From: Streptacidiphilus albus JL83
GTDB lineage: Bacteria > Actinomycetota > Actinomycetes > Streptomycetales > Streptomycetaceae
DNA: 64,000 nucleotides
Direction: 5' to 3'
Assembly (NCBI RefSeq): GCF_000744705.1
Contig: NZ_JQML01000001.1
Location: 4,598,017 to 4,662,016 of the forward strand
The position numbers and the translations under genes were made by a program. Shown one piece after another: positions 20,997 through 29,094 of the stretch. The notes below the pieces were generated by a model, which had not been told where the DNA came from, made no database searches, and was given only the letters and a program-made list of their open reading frames with translations. Positions within the stretch are counted from its first letter, which is position 1. Every line of letters begins with the position of its first letter.

Positions 20997-22151
20997 TCAC
21001 CTCGGCCGCTCCGGCAGCCGGAGGGTGACCTCCAGGCCGCCGTCCGGGCGGGCCCGGGCGAGCACCTGGCCGCCGTGGGCGAGGGCGACCGCCCTGACGA
21101 TGGACAGCCCGAGGCCGACTCCGTCGTGGGTCTGGTCCCGTCCGCTGCGGCGAGTGTTGCGGCCCCGGTGGAACGGTTCGAAGAGCTCGTCCAACTGCTC
21201 CGGCGGGACCGGAGCGCCGTCGTTGGCGACGGCCAGCTCCACCCAGCCGGGCTCGGACGGCCGGGTGACCACCCGCAGCAGCCCGCCCTCGCGGTTGTAC
21301 GCCACCGCGTTCTCCAGCAGGTTGGTCACCGCGATGCCCAGCAGCGCGACATTGCCCGCCAGCGGGACGGGGTCGAGCTGCGCCTCCAGCCGCAGGGCGC
21401 GCGCGCCGCTGCGGGCGGCGACCCGGTCCAGGGCCTCCGCCGCGACGTCCGCCAGGTCGTCCTGGACGATGTCGCCGACGCCCTGCTCGGAGCGGGCCAG
21501 CACCAGCAGGGCCTCGATCAGGCGCTGGGCGTTGCGGGTGGACTCGGCGACGTCCTGGGCCATGGTCCGCCACTGCTCGTCGGTGGCCGCCGGCTTGGCC
21601 AGGGTGACCTCGACCGCCGCCCGGGTCACCGACAGCGGGGTGCGCAGTTCGTGGCTGGCATTGGCGACGAAGCGGCGCTGGGCGGCGAAGGCGGCGTCCA
21701 GGCGTTCCAGCATCTCGTCGAAGGTGTCGCCGAGTTCCTTGAGCTCGTCGTGCGGTCCGGGCAGGTTGAGCCGCTCGTGCAGGGTGGTGTCGGTGGCGCG
21801 CCGGGCCGCCGCGGTGATGGCCGCGATCGGCCGCAGCATCCGGCCGGCGATCCACCAGCCGACCAGCGCGGACATCGCCACCACGACGAGCAGCAGCAGC
21901 AGCGCGACCCGCAGCAGGTGCGAGGCGGCGGCGTCGCGGATCTGGTCGCTGAGGCCGACGATGTGGTCGTGGTCGGGGTCGAGCCGGCTGGGGATCGCGT
22001 CGGCGGGCAGCGGCCGGAAGATGAACCGGTAGAACGCCGTGGTCAGGGCCAGCACCAGGATGCTGCCGCCGACGGTGAACAGGGCGGTGTAGGTGAGGGT
22101 GAGCCTGGCCCGGACGGTCATCGCCGGAAGCCGGAGCCGGCTGCCGCTCAC
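20997..22151 (-). CDS. sensor histidine kinase of a two-component system
   Basis: This 384-residue membrane kinase senses a signal outside the cell and phosphorylates the response regulator encoded just upstream. TM1 is at about 18-40 and TM2 at 80-102, with a short extracytoplasmic loop of about 40 residues. A HAMP linker (about 103-155) follows. The H-box is SHELRTPLS with His167, the N-box is LLENAVAYN (about 281), and the G-boxes include LDELFEPFHRG and DGVGLGLSIV. The start overlaps the regulator stop by four bases. The redox genes transcribed before it suggest it monitors redox or metal state, which is inference. Confidence 0.95.
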   Translation of the reverse strand: MSGSRLRLPAMTVRARLTLTYTALFTVGGSILVLALTTAFYRFIFRPLPADAIPSRLDPDHDHIVGLSDQIRDAAASHLLRVALLLLLVVVAMSALVGWWIAGRMLRPIAAITAAARRATDTTLHERLNLPGPHDELKELGDTFDEMLERLDAAFAAQRRFVANASHELRTPLSVTRAAVEVTLAKPAATDEQWRTMAQDVAESTRNAQRLIEALLVLARSEQGVGDIVQDDLADVAAEALDRVAARSGARALRLEAQLDPVPLAGNVALLGIAVTNLLENAVAYNREGGLLRVVTRPSEPGWVELAVANDGAPVPPEQLDELFEPFHRGRNTRRSGRDQTHDGVGLGLSIVRAVALAHGGQVLARARPDGGLEVTLRLPERPR

Positions 22152-22810
22152 AGGGCGATCCGGTAGCCGGCCCCGACCAGGGTCTCGACCAGGTCGGGCG
22201 GGCCCAGCTTGCGCCGCAGCCGGTTGACGGTGACTCGGACGGTGTTGGTGAACGGGTCCGCGTGCTCGTCCCAGGCGCGTTCGAGCAGCTGCTCGTGGCT
22301 GAGCACCGCGCCGTCCGCACTGAGCAGCACCTGCAGGACGGTGAACTCCTTGGCGGTCAGCGGGACCGGTCGTCCGGCCCGGTGGACGGTGCGCCGCAGG
22401 GTGTCCATGGTGAGGTCGCCCCTGGTCAGCAGCGCCGCATGGGAGCGGCCCCGGCGTCCCAGCGACTGGACCCGCAGGGTCAGCTCGGCGAAGGAGAAGG
22501 GCTTGCCGAGGTAGTCGTCGGCGCCCAGGGTCAGCCCGTCCACCCGGTCGTCGGTGCCGGAGAGCGCGGTGAGCATCAGGATCATCGGGGCGTCGGCCTG
22601 GCCGGCCAGCGCCTGGCAGACCTCGTCGCCGGATAGCCCGGGCAGGTCCCGGTCGAGCACGAGGACGTCGTAGACGTCGCCGTTCACCTCGGTCTTCTCC
22701 AGCGCCTCGGTGCCGTCGTGGCAGACGTCCACGGCCATCCCCTGGTCGCGCAGGCCCTCGGCAATGCGTGCGGCCAGGCGTTCTTCGTCCTCGACGACCA
22801 GGATGCGCAT
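22148..22810 (-). CDS. OmpR/PhoB-family response regulator
   Basis: The 220-residue regulator has a receiver domain (1-120): acidic pocket VVEDEE, phospho-acceptor Asp53 in VLDRDLPG, and the conserved Lys in LGKPFSF. A winged-helix output domain (about 130-218) shows LTAKEFTVLQVLLSADG, NTVRVTVNRLRRKLG and ETLVGAGYRIAL. It starts at ATG 22810 with GGGAG upstream. It overlaps the kinase gene (four bases) and follows the FMN-binding gene by four bases, so all four genes from 24789 down are probably one operon. Confidence 0.96.
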   Translation of the reverse strand: MRILVVEDEERLAARIAEGLRDQGMAVDVCHDGTEALEKTEVNGDVYDVLVLDRDLPGLSGDEVCQALAGQADAPMILMLTALSGTDDRVDGLTLGADDYLGKPFSFAELTLRVQSLGRRGRSHAALLTRGDLTMDTLRRTVHRAGRPVPLTAKEFTVLQVLLSADGAVLSHEQLLERAWDEHADPFTNTVRVTVNRLRRKLGPPDLVETLVGAGYRIAL

Positions 22811-22814
22811 CCCG

Positions 22815-23345
22815 TCATTCTCCCTCGGACGGTCGGACTCCGGCCGGAGCAGCGGCCCGGGCCGAGGGTCGCGGGGCGGCCGACCGGGAGGCGGACGGCG
22901 CGGTGCGGGCGGCCTGGGCCGCCTTGTCGAGGGCGGCCTGGAGCGACTGGGCGTAGCCGTCGGAGGTGTAGGTCGCACCGGAGACCACGTCGATGTCCGC
23001 GCCCTGGGCCTTCAGCGCCTCGGCGGTGAGGAGCGGCAGCGCATAGGAGTCGATCTCGCTGCTGCGCCCGCCGGAGGTCTGCTGCAGGACGGCCACACCG
23101 GTCAGCTTCCCGGCCTTCAGCACTGCCTGGACCTGCATGGTCCCGTAGCGGGTGGGGACGGAGCTGCCGGTGTAGCTGCCGCTCGCGGTGGCGGGCGGCG
23201 CGGCGGCGGCGCCGGTGGAGCTGTTCACCGCCGGGGCGGACCCGCCCAGCGCCGGCCGGAGGGCGCCCCCGGTCCCGGCCTTCACCCCGATGATCAGAGC
23301 GACGCCGGTCGTGGTCGCGGCCAGCGCCATGGTGGTCCTGCGCAT
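22815..23345 (-). CDS. extracytoplasmic FMN-binding domain protein
   Basis: The 176-residue protein has an N-terminal membrane or signal segment (MALAATTTGVALIIGVKAG), a flexible linker, and an FMN-binding domain (about 58-145). The DVVSGATYTSDGY motif contains the Thr (Thr125) that in NqrC/RnfG-like domains carries covalently bound FMN, attached by ApbE. It should act outside the membrane as an electron carrier. The gene follows the ferric-reductase-like gene by about 20 bases in the same operon, so the pair probably forms an electron path across the membrane. The C-terminal tail is Ala/Pro-rich and disordered. No apbE gene is present in the window. Confidence 0.9.
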   Translation of the reverse strand: MRRTTMALAATTTGVALIIGVKAGTGGALRPALGGSAPAVNSSTGAAAAPPATASGSYTGSSVPTRYGTMQVQAVLKAGKLTGVAVLQQTSGGRSSEIDSYALPLLTAEALKAQGADIDVVSGATYTSDGYAQSLQAALDKAAQAARTAPSASRSAAPRPSARAAAPAGVRPSEGE

Positions 23346-23364
23346 GCAGCCTCTCCCTTCCTGG

Positions 23365-24789
23365 TCAGAACTGGAACGCCTCGATGTGGATCCGGTGGCG
23401 GGGGACGCCCGAGCGGCGCAGCTCGGCCCGCACCGACTCGGTCATCCCGACCGGTCCGCAGAGGTAGACCTCGCGCTGGGCGAGGTCGGGGACCATCCGC
23501 CGGAGCTCGGCGCCGCGCAGCGGGTCGTCGTGGGCGCCGCCGCGCGGGCCGGTCCGGGCGAAGAGGCCGAAGCCCCGCCTGCGGGCGATGGACTCCAGTT
23601 CCCCGTAGAGCGCCAGGTCCTCCGGCTGCGAGGCCCGGTAGACCAGGACGACATCGGCGCCCTGCCCCGGCAGGGTCTCGTAGAGGGCCCGGAGCGGGGT
23701 GATCCCCGCGCCGCCGCCGATCAGCAGCGTCCGTCGGCGCCGCCTGCCCCAGCGTGCGCTCCGGCGCGCGGTGAAGGCTCCGTAGGGGCCCTCGAACCAC
23801 ACCCGGGTGCCGGGCCGCAGCCGGCCGAGGCCGGCGCTGGAGTCCCCGAGGTCCTTGACCGTGATCCGCAGGCCGTCGGCCCGGGGCGCGGCCGAGAGCG
23901 AGTAGGGGTGGGACTGCCACCACTGGCCCCGGGCCAGGAAGCGCCAGCGCAGGAACTGCCCGGCCTCGGCCCCGAGCCGGTCGAGCCGGCGGCCGCGGAG
24001 GTGGACGGAGACCACGCCGGGGCCTTCGACGACCACCCGCTCGACCCGTACCCGGTGCCGCAGCGAGCGGGCGAGCGGCAGCGCCACCCGGAAGAGCAGT
24101 ACCGCGGCGGCCACGGCGATGTGGGCGGCGGACCAGAGCACCCGGTTGCGCAGCGAGGCGGAGAACTCGGTGCCGACCGCGAACTCGTGGGCGAAGGCCA
24201 GCCCGATGGCCAGGTACACCAGCAGGTGGACGTGGTACCAGGACTCGTAGGAGAGCTTGCGCCGCACGGCGCGGGCGGAGACCACGCCGACCAGGACCAG
24301 CAGTCCGAGCGAGATCGCGGAGAGCCAGACGTCCGGGTAGTCGAAGATCACGCTGACGCCCTCGGCCACCGGGTTCCGCCCGGACTGCCAGGCGTAGCCG
24401 AGCACGATCAGCACCGCGTGGGCGCAGGCCAGGCCGACGGTGTACTCGCCGAGCGCGCGGTGGTGGCGGGCGACGGTGTCCGAGCCGACCCGGTTCTCCA
24501 GCCAGGGCACCCGCGCCATCAGCGCGACCAGGACCAGCAGCAGGTAGGCGGCCAGCAGCCCGGCGATCCGGCCGGCCGCGGTGAGGCAGGCCGCGCCGTT
24601 GTCGAGCGAGCCGGGGATGGTGTTCTGCCACCAGACGAAGAGGACCGGCGGCACTCCGGCCGCGATGGCCAGCAGCAGCGCCCAGGAGCGGAGCCGGTGC
24701 GGTGCGACCAGTCCGTCGATACCGCCCGGAGTGCCCGCGCGGCCCCGGTGTCGGGCCTGCTGCGAGGGGGGTGTGCCCACGGCGGTCAT
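23365..24789 (-). CDS. ferric-reductase-like transmembrane flavoprotein
   Basis: The 474-residue protein passes electrons from NAD(P)H through FAD to membrane haem. It has an N-terminal ferric-reductase-like membrane domain (about 30-240, six helices) with paired histidines for haem (RHHRALGEYTVGLACAHAVL; WYHVHLLVYLAIGLAFAHEF). An FAD domain (HPYSLSAAP) and an NAD(P) domain (GGGAGITPLRALYE; VYLCGPVGM) follow. The start ATG at 24789 begins MTAVGTPPSQQ. It is the first gene of an operon with the FMN-binding protein and two-component system. Likely acceptors are the FMN protein and then metal ions or other extracellular oxidants, which is inference. Confidence 0.93.
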   Translation of the reverse strand: MTAVGTPPSQQARHRGRAGTPGGIDGLVAPHRLRSWALLLAIAAGVPPVLFVWWQNTIPGSLDNGAACLTAAGRIAGLLAAYLLLVLVALMARVPWLENRVGSDTVARHHRALGEYTVGLACAHAVLIVLGYAWQSGRNPVAEGVSVIFDYPDVWLSAISLGLLVLVGVVSARAVRRKLSYESWYHVHLLVYLAIGLAFAHEFAVGTEFSASLRNRVLWSAAHIAVAAAVLLFRVALPLARSLRHRVRVERVVVEGPGVVSVHLRGRRLDRLGAEAGQFLRWRFLARGQWWQSHPYSLSAAPRADGLRITVKDLGDSSAGLGRLRPGTRVWFEGPYGAFTARRSARWGRRRRRTLLIGGGAGITPLRALYETLPGQGADVVLVYRASQPEDLALYGELESIARRRGFGLFARTGPRGGAHDDPLRGAELRRMVPDLAQREVYLCGPVGMTESVRAELRRSGVPRHRIHIEAFQF

Positions 24790-24947
24790 GAGCGGCTCCG
24801 GTCGGTGCGGCTGCGGGTGCTGTTCGGTGCGTCGCGGCACCGGCTCCGGTCGGCCGGTGCGACAGGGTGTCGCCCGGCACCTCCGCCAGGTACCACCAGC
24901 ACTCTCGCCGCAGCGGCCTAACACTGCGGTAACAGCCGCCGCCCGGG

Positions 24948-25760
24948 CTACCGCAGGGCCGGGGCCACCGCCGGGGCGGCCGAGGAGGCGTTCGAGTCGT
25001 GGTCGGAACTCCCGCCGGACTCCCCGCCGGTGGTGCCGCCGGCGACCAGCCCCACCACCAGGAACAGCACCAGCAGCGCCTTCGCCGCACCGCTGAGCAC
25101 CAGCGGCCGGGTGGCCGAGACCACCGGCCCGGTCGGCCGGTCGCCGTCGCCGAACAGCCGCTTGGGGTAGGCGGAGGAGAGCAGCAGGCTGTACGCGCCG
25201 AACCGCATGGAGAAGCGGAGGACCGCCGCCGTGGCCTCGAACAGCGGCCTCGGCATCCGGCCGAGGACCAGCACGACCAGCCAGACGAAGAAGGAGAGCA
25301 CGGTCCAGCCGCCGACGGCCAGCGCCTGGACGATCGCGGCCGGGATCATCAGCAGCAGCCGGAAGAAGACCGCGAGCCGGTTCAGCGTCCCGGGCCGCAC
25401 CTCCACCTGGACCAGGTGGTCGACCGGCAGGAACAGCGCGAACGGCGGGTAGCTGTCGACCAGCAGCATCGAACTGGAGGCCACCCGGGTCTCGTAGGCG
25501 AGGTAGCCCGCGAGGTAGCGGGCGGTCGGGGCCGGCATCCGGCCCAGCACCAGCGCGCCGAACCAGGCCGCGACCACCACGAAGAAGGCGACGACGGACA
25601 GCGCCCAGACCACCACGTACTGCGGGATCAGCAGCAGGTGGCGCAGCAGCACGGTGAGCCGGCGCTGGCGGCCGGGCTCCGGGACGTCCAGGGCCGGCAG
25701 CCATTCACCGGCCCCGTGCTCCCGGGGTGGTTCCGGTGCTGCCCAGGTGGCGTTCGCCAT
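24948..25760 (-). CDS. DUF4389 family membrane protein
   Basis: The 270-residue protein has two DUF4389 repeats. Each begins with a re-entrant hydrophobic pair (LTVLLRHLLLIPQYVVVWAL; LAVFFRLLLMIPAAIVQALA) followed by an FFxxxAxWFxxLxLGRMP-type motif (GALVLGRMPAP and VVLVLGRMPRP). A further hydrophobic segment lies near the C terminus (LLVLFLVVGLVAGG), followed by a Gly/Ser-rich tail. The start ATG is at 25760. The family's function is unknown; it is often near metabolism or stress genes in actinobacteria. It is divergent from the phosphodiesterase gene at 26091 and separated from the reductase operon by 158 bases. Confidence 0.88.
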   Translation of the reverse strand: MANATWAAPEPPREHGAGEWLPALDVPEPGRQRRLTVLLRHLLLIPQYVVVWALSVVAFFVVVAAWFGALVLGRMPAPTARYLAGYLAYETRVASSSMLLVDSYPPFALFLPVDHLVQVEVRPGTLNRLAVFFRLLLMIPAAIVQALAVGGWTVLSFFVWLVVLVLGRMPRPLFEATAAVLRFSMRFGAYSLLLSSAYPKRLFGDGDRPTGPVVSATRPLVLSGAAKALLVLFLVVGLVAGGTTGGESGGSSDHDSNASSAAPAVAPALR

Positions 25761-26090
25761 GTCCGCGCTCCTTCGGCCGGGCCGCCCGTCGCCCCGGTGC
25801 GTCCACGCTCGCAGCTGGGGCGTGGCCGGGCACCCCGGCGGACCCGTCCGGTCGACCCGCGCCGGCCGCGGACCGCGGGCCTGCACCGCTCGCCGCTCGC
25901 GGATCGCGGTTCGCGGTTCGCGGTCCGCACTGCCGTCCTCCCGGCGAACTCCCGGTGTCGGCCGGGTGAATGCTTGGACCGGCGGACCAAGGGAGCCCGG
26001 GCGCGGAGGGCCCCGGGCGGGCCGGGGCCGCGGCGCCGGTGGGTAGGGTGCCGCCAACCCCCCTTCCCCCGAACGAACGGAAGAACAGCT
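25761..26090. other. divergent promoter region with 7-bp tandem repeats
   Basis: No gene is seen. This spacer must hold the promoters of the DUF4389 gene (minus) and the phosphodiesterase gene (plus). Four consecutive seven-base units (GCGGATC, GCGGTTC, GCGGTTC, GCGGTCC) lie at 25899-25926 and could be a regulator-binding array. Confidence 0.5.
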
Positions 26091-26975
26091 GTGTCCAGTA
26101 CCTGGCCCGCCGGCCCCCGCCGCGTCCTGGTCGTCGGCATCGACGGCGTCCGACTCGACCTGCTCCCGGAGCTGGACACCCCGCACCTGGACTCCGTGGC
26201 CGCGGCCGGCTTCCTGGCGCCGGTCGAGGTCGACGAGGCCACGCCGACCATGTCCGGGCCGTGCTGGGCCACCATCGCCACCGGTGTCGGCGTCGCCAAG
26301 CACGGCGTCTTCGGCAACCACTTCGGCGGCAACCGGCTGGACGTCTTCCCGGACTTCACCACCCGGCTGGCCTCGGCCCACCGGCGGCGCACCTTCGCGG
26401 CCGGCGGCTGGGAGCCGCTGTTCCTGGCCCGTGAGGGCGGCCCGCTGTTCGCCGCCCCCGGCCGGCTCTCCTACGTGGCACCGCTGGAGGACTCCCCGGA
26501 GGCCTGGGAGGTCTGCGACGAGCGGGTGACCGCCGAGGCCGTGTACGTGCTGGGCGGCGCGGACGACCCGCAGGCGTCCTTCGTCTACCTGGGCGCGGTC
26601 GACGAGACCGCCCACTTCCTGGGCTGCGGGGCGGAGTACCGCCGCTCGATCGCCCTGGCCGACCAGCGGCTGGGCCGGCTGCTGGCGGCGGTCCGCGGCC
26701 GCTCGACCCATGCCGAGGAGGAGTGGACGGTGATCGTGGTGACCGACCACGGCCATGTCGACGCGGGCGGCCACGGCGGGCGCAGCACCGTGGAGCGGAC
26801 GGCCTGGGTGGCCGCCTCCGGCCCCGGCATCGCGGCCGGCGGGCCGGTCCTGCCGGTCCGCCACGTCGACGTCGCGGCGCAGGTCTACGCCGCCCTGGAG
26901 ATAGCCCCCGACCCGCACTGGACCCTGGAGGGCCGCCCGTTCACTCCGGCCGCCGAACCGGCGCCGGTCGGCTGA
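26091..26975 (+). CDS. alkaline-phosphatase-superfamily phosphodiesterase
   Basis: The 294-residue enzyme belongs to the nucleotide pyrophosphatase/phosphodiesterase type. Metal and catalytic segments are VVGIDGVRLDLL (first Asp), PTMSGPCWATIATG (nucleophile Ser/Thr region), GAVDETAHFLG (Asp and His) and VTDHGHVDAGGHGG (Asp-His and His). Two metal ions should be bound. It starts at GTG 26091 with GGAAG upstream. There is no signal peptide, so it is probably cytoplasmic, unlike many relatives. The gene stands alone with a terminator after it. The substrate is unknown; it could be a nucleotide or phospholipid-type diester. Confidence 0.9.
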   Translation: MSSTWPAGPRRVLVVGIDGVRLDLLPELDTPHLDSVAAAGFLAPVEVDEATPTMSGPCWATIATGVGVAKHGVFGNHFGGNRLDVFPDFTTRLASAHRRRTFAAGGWEPLFLAREGGPLFAAPGRLSYVAPLEDSPEAWEVCDERVTAEAVYVLGGADDPQASFVYLGAVDETAHFLGCGAEYRRSIALADQRLGRLLAAVRGRSTHAEEEWTVIVVTDHGHVDAGGHGGRSTVERTAWVAASGPGIAAGGPVLPVRHVDVAAQVYAALEIAPDPHWTLEGRPFTPAAEPAPVG

Positions 26976-27045: not shown

Positions 27046-27231
27046 GGGTACCGGGGGTCTGTGTACGCAGAGGGCCTGTTGCCGTGCACCCGTTCGGCGC
27101 TATGTTGACACAAAGTCTCATAAGCGGCCCGCACCTCGCCTCCGGCGGCAGACCTCCACCGAAGGCCGGTACGGACCGCATTCGCCGTACTACGCTCTGC
27201 CAGGGCCGAGCCGGAGCCGCAGGAGGACGTC

Positions 27232-29094
27232 ATGCCCGCCGTTTCCACCGAACACGCGCAGCTGCGCCCGCGCCGGGTCGCCTTCGACTGGAGCGACACC
27301 CCGCTGCACTGGGTGCCGGGCGACCCCTTCTCCACTCACATGATCAATGTGCTGCACCTGCTGCTGCCGGCCGGTGAGCGCTGGTTCGTCCACGTCTACA
27401 AGCAGATCCTGCCGCTGGTCCGCGACCCCGCCCTGCGCGAGGACGTGATCGGCTTCATCGGCCAGGAGGCGATGCACGCCCAGGCCCACTCCACCGTGCT
27501 GGACCACCTGCGGGCCCAGGGGCTCGACCCCACCCCGTACACCGAGCAGATGGACTGGTTCTTCGAGCACCTGCTCGGCGACACCACCGCGCCGCCGCTG
27601 GGCCGGCGCTGGTGGCTGATGGAGCGGGTCGCGATCATCGCCGCGATCGAGCACTACACCGCCGTCCTCGGCAAGTGGGTGCTGGACGCGGAGGGCTTCG
27701 AGCGGTACGGCGCCGACCCGATGATGCTGGACCTGCTGCGCTGGCACGGCGCGGAGGAGGTCGAGCACCGCTCCGTCGCCTTCGACGTCTTCCAGCACCT
27801 GGACGGCGGCTACGGGCGGCGGCAGCGGACCATGGCCATCGTCTTCCCGACCATGGCCTGGCTGTGGGTGCGCGGGGTGAAGTTCTTCCTGGCGAACGAC
27901 CCCGAACTCACCCCCGCCCAGCGGCGGGCGGCCGAACCGCACCTGCGCGACTGGGTCAGGGCCGGACGGGCCGACCTGGTCCCCGCGCCGAAGATGCTCC
28001 TCGCCGCCGTGCCGCGCTACCTGCGCCGCCGCTACCACCCCTCACAGGAGGGCTCGACCGCGAAGGCCCTGGCCTATCTGGCGAGCTCCCCGGCCGCGCG
28101 GGCGGCCGAGGCAGCCGCCGCGCCGCCCGTGCTGGAACTGGTCGTGGCCGGGCGCGGCCGTCCGGCCGAGGACGTCGCCGAGCTGCGGCTCGCGGCGGCC
28201 GACGGGGGCGAGCTGCCGGCCTGGGAGCCCGGCGCCCACCTGGACCTGCTGCTGCCCTCCGGCCTGGTCCGGCAGTACTCCCTCTGCGGCGACCCGGCCG
28301 ACCGCTCGGCCTACCGGATCGCGGTCCGGCTCACCGAGGACAGCCGGGGCGGCTCCCGCGAGGTCCACCAGGCACTCACGCCCGGCGCGCGGATCGACGC
28401 GCACCCGCCGCGCAACCGCTTCGCCTCCGGCGACGACCCCGAGCGCCCGCAGTTCTTCGTCGCCGGCGGCATCGGCATCACCCCGATCCTGCCGAAGGTC
28501 CGCGCGGCCGCCGCCCGGGGCGCCGACTGGCAGCTGCTCTACCTCGGCCGTTCGCGCCCGACCATGCCCTACCTCGACGAAGTCGAGGCTCTGGACGGGC
28601 TCGGGGCCGTCGAGGGGTCGGTCGGACGGGTCCGCGTCGTCGCCACCGGGACCGAGGGCCGGCCCGACCTCGCCGCCGCGCTGGCCGGGGCCCCGGCCGA
28701 CGCCGAGGTCCAGGTCTGCGGCCCGGAAGGGCTGACCGACGCCGTGGTCGCCGCCCTGGCCGAGCTGCGCCCCGGAGCCGAGGCCCGGCTGGAGCGCTTC
28801 CACCCCGCCGGGGGCGCGGCGGACCAGGCCGACGCCGAGGTCGAGGTCGAGCTCGCCCGCAGCGGCCGGACGGTCACCGTCCCGGCCGCGCGCAGTGTGC
28901 TCGGCGCCCTCCGCGAGGAACTGCCCGACCTGCCCTACTCCTGCGAGCAGGGCTTCTGCGGCACCTGCCGGGCCACCGTGCTGGCCGGGACGCCGGACCA
29001 CCGCGGCGAGGCGCTGACCGAGGCGGAGCAGGAGGACTCGATGCTGCTCTGCGTCTCCCGCAGCCGGGACGGCCGACTGGTGCTGGACCTCTGA
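27232..29094 (+). CDS. fused diiron oxygenase-like and FAD/2Fe-2S reductase
   Basis: The 620-residue protein joins two modules. Residues 1-280 are of the PF10118 'metal-dependent hydrolase' type, a ferritin-like fold with putative diiron ligands: Glu79 and His82 (QEAMHAQAH), Glu140-His141, and Glu175/178 with His179 (GAEEVEHRS). Residues about 310-530 are a ferredoxin-NADP-reductase-like module with RQYSLCG (FAD) and VAGGIGITPIL (NAD). The last 90 residues are a plant-type [2Fe-2S] domain with Cys571, 576, 579 and 607. The chain therefore carries its own electron supply and is likely a self-sufficient oxygenase or desaturase on a lipid-like substrate; this is inference. ATG 27232 follows AGGAGG. 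Confidence 0.9.
   Translation: MPAVSTEHAQLRPRRVAFDWSDTPLHWVPGDPFSTHMINVLHLLLPAGERWFVHVYKQILPLVRDPALREDVIGFIGQEAMHAQAHSTVLDHLRAQGLDPTPYTEQMDWFFEHLLGDTTAPPLGRRWWLMERVAIIAAIEHYTAVLGKWVLDAEGFERYGADPMMLDLLRWHGAEEVEHRSVAFDVFQHLDGGYGRRQRTMAIVFPTMAWLWVRGVKFFLANDPELTPAQRRAAEPHLRDWVRAGRADLVPAPKMLLAAVPRYLRRRYHPSQEGSTAKALAYLASSPAARAAEAAAAPPVLELVVAGRGRPAEDVAELRLAAADGGELPAWEPGAHLDLLLPSGLVRQYSLCGDPADRSAYRIAVRLTEDSRGGSREVHQALTPGARIDAHPPRNRFASGDDPERPQFFVAGGIGITPILPKVRAAAARGADWQLLYLGRSRPTMPYLDEVEALDGLGAVEGSVGRVRVVATGTEGRPDLAAALAGAPADAEVQVCGPEGLTDAVVAALAELRPGAEARLERFHPAGGAADQADAEVEVELARSGRTVTVPAARSVLGALREELPDLPYSCEQGFCGTCRATVLAGTPDHRGEALTEAEQEDSMLLCVSRSRDGRLVLDL

Follow-up and report, generated by a model that had tools for sequence, protein, structure and literature searches.

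Self-sufficient fusions of redox enzymes with their electron-transfer partners are known for cytochrome P450s, for AlkB-rubredoxin and for flavodiiron-rubredoxin-reductase proteins, the latter two being diiron enzymes (PMC7260179; PMC10113152; PMC9364112). In the CYP116B P450s (CYP116B46, P450 RhF), an N-terminal oxygenase is followed in one chain by a phthalate dioxygenase reductase (PDR)-type FMN/NAD(P)H/[2Fe-2S] reductase, and in CYP116 P450s this C-terminal module carries electrons from NAD(P)H through FMN and [2Fe-2S] to heme (PMC7260179). Here we describe a gene of Streptacidiphilus albus JL83 that shares this layout but encodes a ferritin-like dimetal domain of the family PF10118 where those enzymes have a heme P450 catalytic domain. 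It lies in a stretch of 64,000 nucleotides (the window; contig NZ_JQML01000001.1, positions 4,598,017 to 4,662,016), part of a complete 9.9-Mb genome. The AlkB and flavodiiron fusions differ from it in that their reductases are unrelated to the one found here. AlkB has a membrane histidine-rich diiron fold and flavodiiron proteins a beta-lactamase-like fold, both unrelated to the ferritin-like fold. A search of mainly open-access literature found neither a functional study of PF10118 (Metal_hydrol, COG3687) nor any fusion of a ferritin-like dimetal oxygenase with a PDR-type reductase. Based on sequence comparisons and structural models, we consider it likely that the gene product is a self-sufficient oxygenase that draws its electrons from NAD(P)H and has a ferritin-like dimetal centre, most likely of iron.

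The open reading frame (Table 1) is intact, begins with ATG and has a strong coding signature, with a GC content of 0.79/0.51/0.96 across the three codon positions. A preliminary description, made from the DNA alone, had read it as one 620-residue chain joining a PF10118-like domain to a complete reductase of the vanillate demethylase type, and both halves are indeed present and complete. Pfam membership is defined by a score above the curated cut-off over the full model; the N-terminal domain matches PF10118 with an E-value of 3.1e-78 (263 bits against a cut-off of 33.2, model positions 2-246 of 247). The same scan returned Fer2 (PF00111, residues 541-610, 50 bits), an NAD_binding_1 score under the cut-off and no P450 domain. 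Residues 300-620 align end to end with the phthalate dioxygenase reductase 2PIA (E 1e-42). The same holds for the reductase halves of CYP116B P450s, which are the closest PDB sequences for this half (6LAA, E 1e-58; 6KBH, E 1e-49), and the matches to 6LAA and 6KBH are confined to it. The RxYS flavin barrel, NAD domain and C-terminal four-cysteine [2Fe-2S] domain that define PDR/VanB-type enzymes are all found there, and the redox motifs are near-invariant in 153 reductase rows. Because the module is of the PDR/CYP116B type, the flavin is probably FMN. The FAD of the preliminary description is thus by homology probably FMN, and its NAD is better given as NAD(P)H.

The AlphaFold2 model of the N-terminal domain (mean predicted local distance difference test, pLDDT, 94.9) is a helical bundle resembling solved ferritin-like dimetal oxidases, consistent with the ferritin fold proposed earlier. 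A direct sequence search of this domain against solved structures gave no significant homology. The 50 PDB matches listed by Foldseek are structures of R2, R2lox, AurF, CmlI, VlmB and aldehyde-deformylating oxidase, with probabilities of up to 1.00. The best structural matches of the full-length model are CYP116B46, another CYP116B enzyme and PDR, all through the reductase.

We aligned 29, 37 and 192 homologues, the largest set including sequences only 23-30% identical to the window protein. Ten residues are unchanged in all three alignments: E49, E79, H82, H86, E140, H172, E175, E176, E178 and H179. The resulting pattern, E ... QExxH ... E ... HxxEExxH, contains the two ExxH motifs known from ferritin-like diiron oxygenases as well as a third histidine, placed four residues ahead of the final glutamate, and the proposed ligands are positioned on the four helices of the model. 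Thus the two ExxH motifs and two further glutamates of ferritin-like dimetal sites (E49, E79xxH82, E140 and E176xxH179) are kept in 192/192 homologues, and the loss of ligands that the preliminary description had named as evidence against itself was not seen. Its three clusters of glutamate and histidine are better counted as seven ligands of the AurF-like kind, spread over four helices, with the invariant H86 in addition. R2lox and R2, the best Foldseek matches, share the two ExxH motifs; the PF10118 site differs from theirs in the extra histidine H172 and in H86 (27487-27489), which lies four residues past the ligand H82, is invariant in 192/192 and by its spacing presumably takes the position of the R2 radical Tyr122.

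Ten other Streptacidiphilus assemblies also carry the fusion, so it is not a sequencing artefact, and a frameshift or assembly error was rejected. The fused gene is present in 11 of 14 Streptacidiphilus genomes and the split version in the other three; one of the fused copies, from an assembly of low completeness (G070), is interrupted by a frame break close to its N-terminus. We scanned 84,980 species genomes with an alignment of the fused protein and examined the best 80 of 364 relatives; among these, the fused genes are exclusively from Streptacidiphilus and the remainder are two genes in Streptomyces. The fusion is thus clade-specific. Apparent Streptomyces fusions with both parts in the same frame (L131-L134, L136, L137) were rejected, as a stop separates the parts. 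In three Streptomyces loci checked, the distance from the stop of the first gene to the start of the second is -1 to 3 nt, which resembles translationally coupled genes.

At 112 distinct PF10118 loci of Actinomycetota, the two parts are fused in 11 cases, adjacent in 58 (reductase immediately downstream, same strand) and near each other in 2. The split genes lie side by side in most Streptomyces checked, many mycobacteria, Dietzia and Rhodococcus, and on Dietzia and Rhodococcus plasmids they are independently annotated as 'metal-dependent hydrolase' followed by 'PDR/VanB family oxidoreductase'. Where the fusion has its linker, the two genes of split relatives are separated by a stop and a new start, and the reductase carries a hydrophobic segment at its N-terminus. 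In trees of each half, the fused clade is monophyletic with support of 100, its sister is the Streptomyces adjacent pairs (support 95 and 92), and unlinked paralogous reductases branch away from it. Because the trees of both halves agree, the simplest history appears to be one fusion of an old two-gene unit, an event that would have removed the stop and the hydrophobic segment. As read from the sequences, PF10118 and the reductase were partners long before they were fused. PF10118 itself is found in 118 of 150 sampled Streptomycetaceae genomes and also in mycobacteria, Acinetobacter, Pseudomonas and Burkholderia. In another clade of PF10118 from streptomycetes (support 98; among others L022 and L073-L079), the invariant metal-site residues are retained, but no PDR reductase is adjacent.

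In the proposed enzyme, electrons would pass from NAD(P)H to the flavin, then to the [2Fe-2S] cluster and on to the metal pair of the N-terminal domain, within or between fused chains. The reduced pair, presumably of iron, would bind O2 as in a monooxygenase and give a peroxo or higher-valent species that would oxidise an organic substrate. By analogy, the best reading of the layout is that of the CYP116B P450s with diiron replacing heme. Because the PF10118 domain is joined to a reductase that its relatives encode as a separate neighbour, we strongly infer an oxidative rather than a hydrolytic reaction. The preliminary description had considered the 'hydrolase' label misleading, a view supported by the invariant ligands, the ferritin-like fold and the conserved reductase partner. 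Together this strongly suggests that PF10118, labelled 'metal-dependent hydrolase' in actinobacteria and proteobacteria, does oxidation. A comparable argument, in which electron-transfer genes dedicated to a 'hydrolase' family cast doubt on its label, was used for the AibH2-like proteins (amidohydrolase family, PF04909), which were recast as monooxygenases partly from adjacent Rieske genes (PMC10401708). If the oxygenase assignment is true, a family widespread in Streptomycetaceae and other bacteria has carried the wrong functional label. The fusion would then sidestep the usual search for the redox partner of a diiron enzyme and identify the reductase partner of many split relatives, and a single-chain oxygenase, which should require nothing beyond NAD(P)H, O2 and substrate, would offer a practical entry point.

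The metal site also shows the seven-ligand pattern of three histidines and four glutamates with HxxEExxH of the AurF/CmlI arylamine N-oxygenases (PF11583), which have the same E, xExxH, E, HxxEExxH layout and a four-helix bundle. HxxEExxH is also invariant in the AurF-family alignment that we built for comparison. From the motif spacing, we take the invariant H172 to be the counterpart of AurF His223. A study of the dimetal halogenases CylC and NocO places D135, H139, E196, D226 and H230 around the AurF site, calls the 3His/4carboxylate set largely unique to N-oxygenases and gives the halogenase motifs as QExxH and HxxDExxH (PMC12101540). The window protein shares QExxH with these enzymes but has HxxEExxH as its second motif, E175 replacing the aspartate, and E140 is invariant in PF10118 but not in CylC homologues.

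An AurF-like N-oxygenase would use this site to oxidise an amine to a hydroxylamine, nitroso or nitro product, with the fused PDR module supplying electrons. AurF, CmlI and VlmB are among the structural matches of the N-terminal domain, and the Pfam AurF model scores six of 29 PF10118 members (best E 5.5e-6, 26.2 bits against a curated cut-off of 29.6), although the scan gave no PF11583 match for the window protein. We consider this activity unlikely, given that CylC-type C-H halogenases share the three-histidine pattern and, like PF10118, have a glutamine before the first glutamate, that R2lox outranks AurF in the Foldseek comparison and that the genome context is lipid-like rather than amine-related. 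AurF-type assays use NADH and phenazine methosulfate (PMS) as an artificial reductant (PMC6783550), whereas the window protein has a fused dedicated reductase. We thus propose an AurF-like site from the residue pattern and do not claim membership of the AurF family. We give roughly even chances to a broader reading, in which PF10118 would form a so far unrecognised branch of the AurF/CylC-like dimetal oxygenases with seven ligands, served by a PDR reductase of its own. The Streptacidiphilus protein would then be the first self-sufficient member known, a diiron counterpart of the CYP116B P450s.

At all of the nine other Streptacidiphilus fused loci with searched flanks, the gene is preceded by an M24 peptidase gene and a fusion of an abhydrolase with a short-chain dehydrogenase/reductase (SDR) of the EphD/PRK05855 type, the latter fragmentary in one poor assembly. 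The order on a Dietzia plasmid is M24, abhydrolase-SDR, PF10118, reductase and TetR; Embleya and split Streptacidiphilus loci have the M24 and abhydrolase-SDR neighbours on the opposite side, and some mycobacterial loci have an SDR neighbour. This neighbourhood, which recurs in Streptacidiphilus, Embleya and Dietzia (L126:3202-5936, L117:30-2671, L122, L280, L281), is apparently an undescribed oxidative operon. EphD, which has a link to mycolic acid metabolism, opens the fatty-acid epoxide 9,10-epoxystearate (PMC7998700), so the EphD-like neighbour hints at lipid oxidation. Neighbours in Rhodococcus are an acyl-CoA ligase, an aldehyde dehydrogenase, an SDR and a flavin oxidoreductase, and a related gene on Acinetobacter plasmids has a P450/ferredoxin set and thioesterases close by. 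With low confidence, the gene context points to lipid or hydrocarbon oxidation. Tentatively, the substrate may be a lipid-like acyl chain or hydrocarbon that is hydroxylated or epoxidised and then handled by an epoxide hydrolase and a dehydrogenase.

Directly downstream of the fusion in the window lies a gene for a VIT1/CCC1-type putative iron/manganese transporter (PF01988; 29179-29955, forward strand). Downstream synteny of VIT1 and BldC is kept with three fused-gene relatives, in which VIT1 lies 2-3 kb past the fusion, with a TetR gene and other sequence between; a search of the remaining Streptacidiphilus flanks did not find VIT1. Such a neighbour fits iron or manganese handling, and the product could be a rubrerythrin- or ferritin-like dimetal NAD(P)H oxidase/peroxidase or iron-handling protein, its reductase clearing O2 or H2O2 or reducing ferric iron. 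There are weak Ferritin_2 and Rubrerythrin matches, and natural flavodiiron-reductase fusions can be pure oxidases (PMC9364112). We regard this as improbable in view of the distance or absence of VIT1 at the other loci and of the recurring neighbours in other genera, which are SDR, abhydrolase, acyl-CoA ligase and aldehyde dehydrogenase genes. A genuine metal-dependent hydrolase with a fortuitous or regulatory reductase has only the family label in its favour, which also put PF10118 among candidate proteases (PMC8960859), and is highly improbable given the ferritin-like carboxylate/histidine site, the lack of any hydrolase among the 50 listed structural matches and the association with an NAD(P)H reductase, which has been conserved for long.

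Several results weigh against the oxygenase assignment. The Foldseek E-values for the N-terminal domain are weak (best 0.012, template modelling score about 0.5), and the relative placement of domains in the full-length model is unreliable (predicted template modelling score, pTM, 0.70). Profile-profile comparison of PF10118 with the AurF family by hhalign superposes both ExxH motifs, but at a probability of 0.4% and an E-value of 0.17 the score is not significant, and AurF homology on this basis was rejected. The remaining 41 of the 112 PF10118 loci have no such reductase in the fetched flanks. The EphD-like abhydrolase-SDR, M24 and TetR neighbours are absent at the window locus, and the best genome-wide match to the abhydrolase-SDR gene is to the abhydrolase half alone, at 48%.

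Table 1 Coordinates of the fusion gene and of its predicted functional elements in the window
Feature	Position	Strand	Evidence
Fusion gene, PF10118 dimetal domain and PDR/VanB-type reductase, 620 aa	27232..29094	+	orthologous fusions in 10 further Streptacidiphilus assemblies
Ribosome-binding site AGGAGG	27221..27226	+	sequence 5' of ATG
PF10118 (Metal_hydrol) domain, residues 13-273, ferritin-like four-helix core	27268..28050	+	Pfam, AlphaFold2 model, Foldseek
E49, predicted metal ligand, helix 1 (32-62)	27376..27378	+	invariant 192/192
Q78-E79-x-x-H82-x-x-x-H86 motif, helix 2 (66-95)	27463..27489	+	invariant 192/192; QExxH cf. PMC12101540
E79, H82 predicted ligands; Q78 second shell; H86 extra invariant His	within 27463..27489	+	
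E140, predicted ligand, helix 3 (122-152)	27649..27651	+	invariant 192/192
H172-x-x-E175-E176-x-x-H179 motif	27745..27768	+	invariant 192/192; AurF family alignment; HxxDExxH in CylC
H172, E176, H179 predicted ligands (AurF-type third His); E175 second shell	within 27745..27768	+	
Short Ala-rich linker, residues 286-299	28087..28128	+	comparison with split relatives
PDR-type reductase (flavin barrel, NAD-binding domain, C-terminal plant-type [2Fe-2S] ferredoxin), residues 300-620	28129..29091	+	Pfam, alignments
R-Q-Y-S flavin-binding motif, residues 347-350	28270..28281	+	R347, S350 153/153; Y349 152/153
GGIGITP nucleotide-binding motif, residues 412-418	28465..28485	+	reductase alignment
[2Fe-2S] cysteines C571, C576, C579, C607	28942..29052	+	each site 150/153 reductase rows; Fer2 PF00111

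Upstream of the fusion, a type I phosphodiesterase/nucleotide pyrophosphatase gene (26073-26975, forward strand) sits where other fused loci have the M24 and EphD-like genes; it was not found in the searched flanks of relatives. The BldC family developmental regulator (NF033787; 30519-30947, reverse strand) is about 95-97% identical in the syntenic relatives, and its start is probably downstream of the listed one. Further upstream, the translations of 20997-25704 (reverse strand) comprise a two-component sensor/regulator, a small FMN-binding-like protein and a ferric-reductase-like membrane flavoprotein, which together may form a cluster for electron export or respiration.
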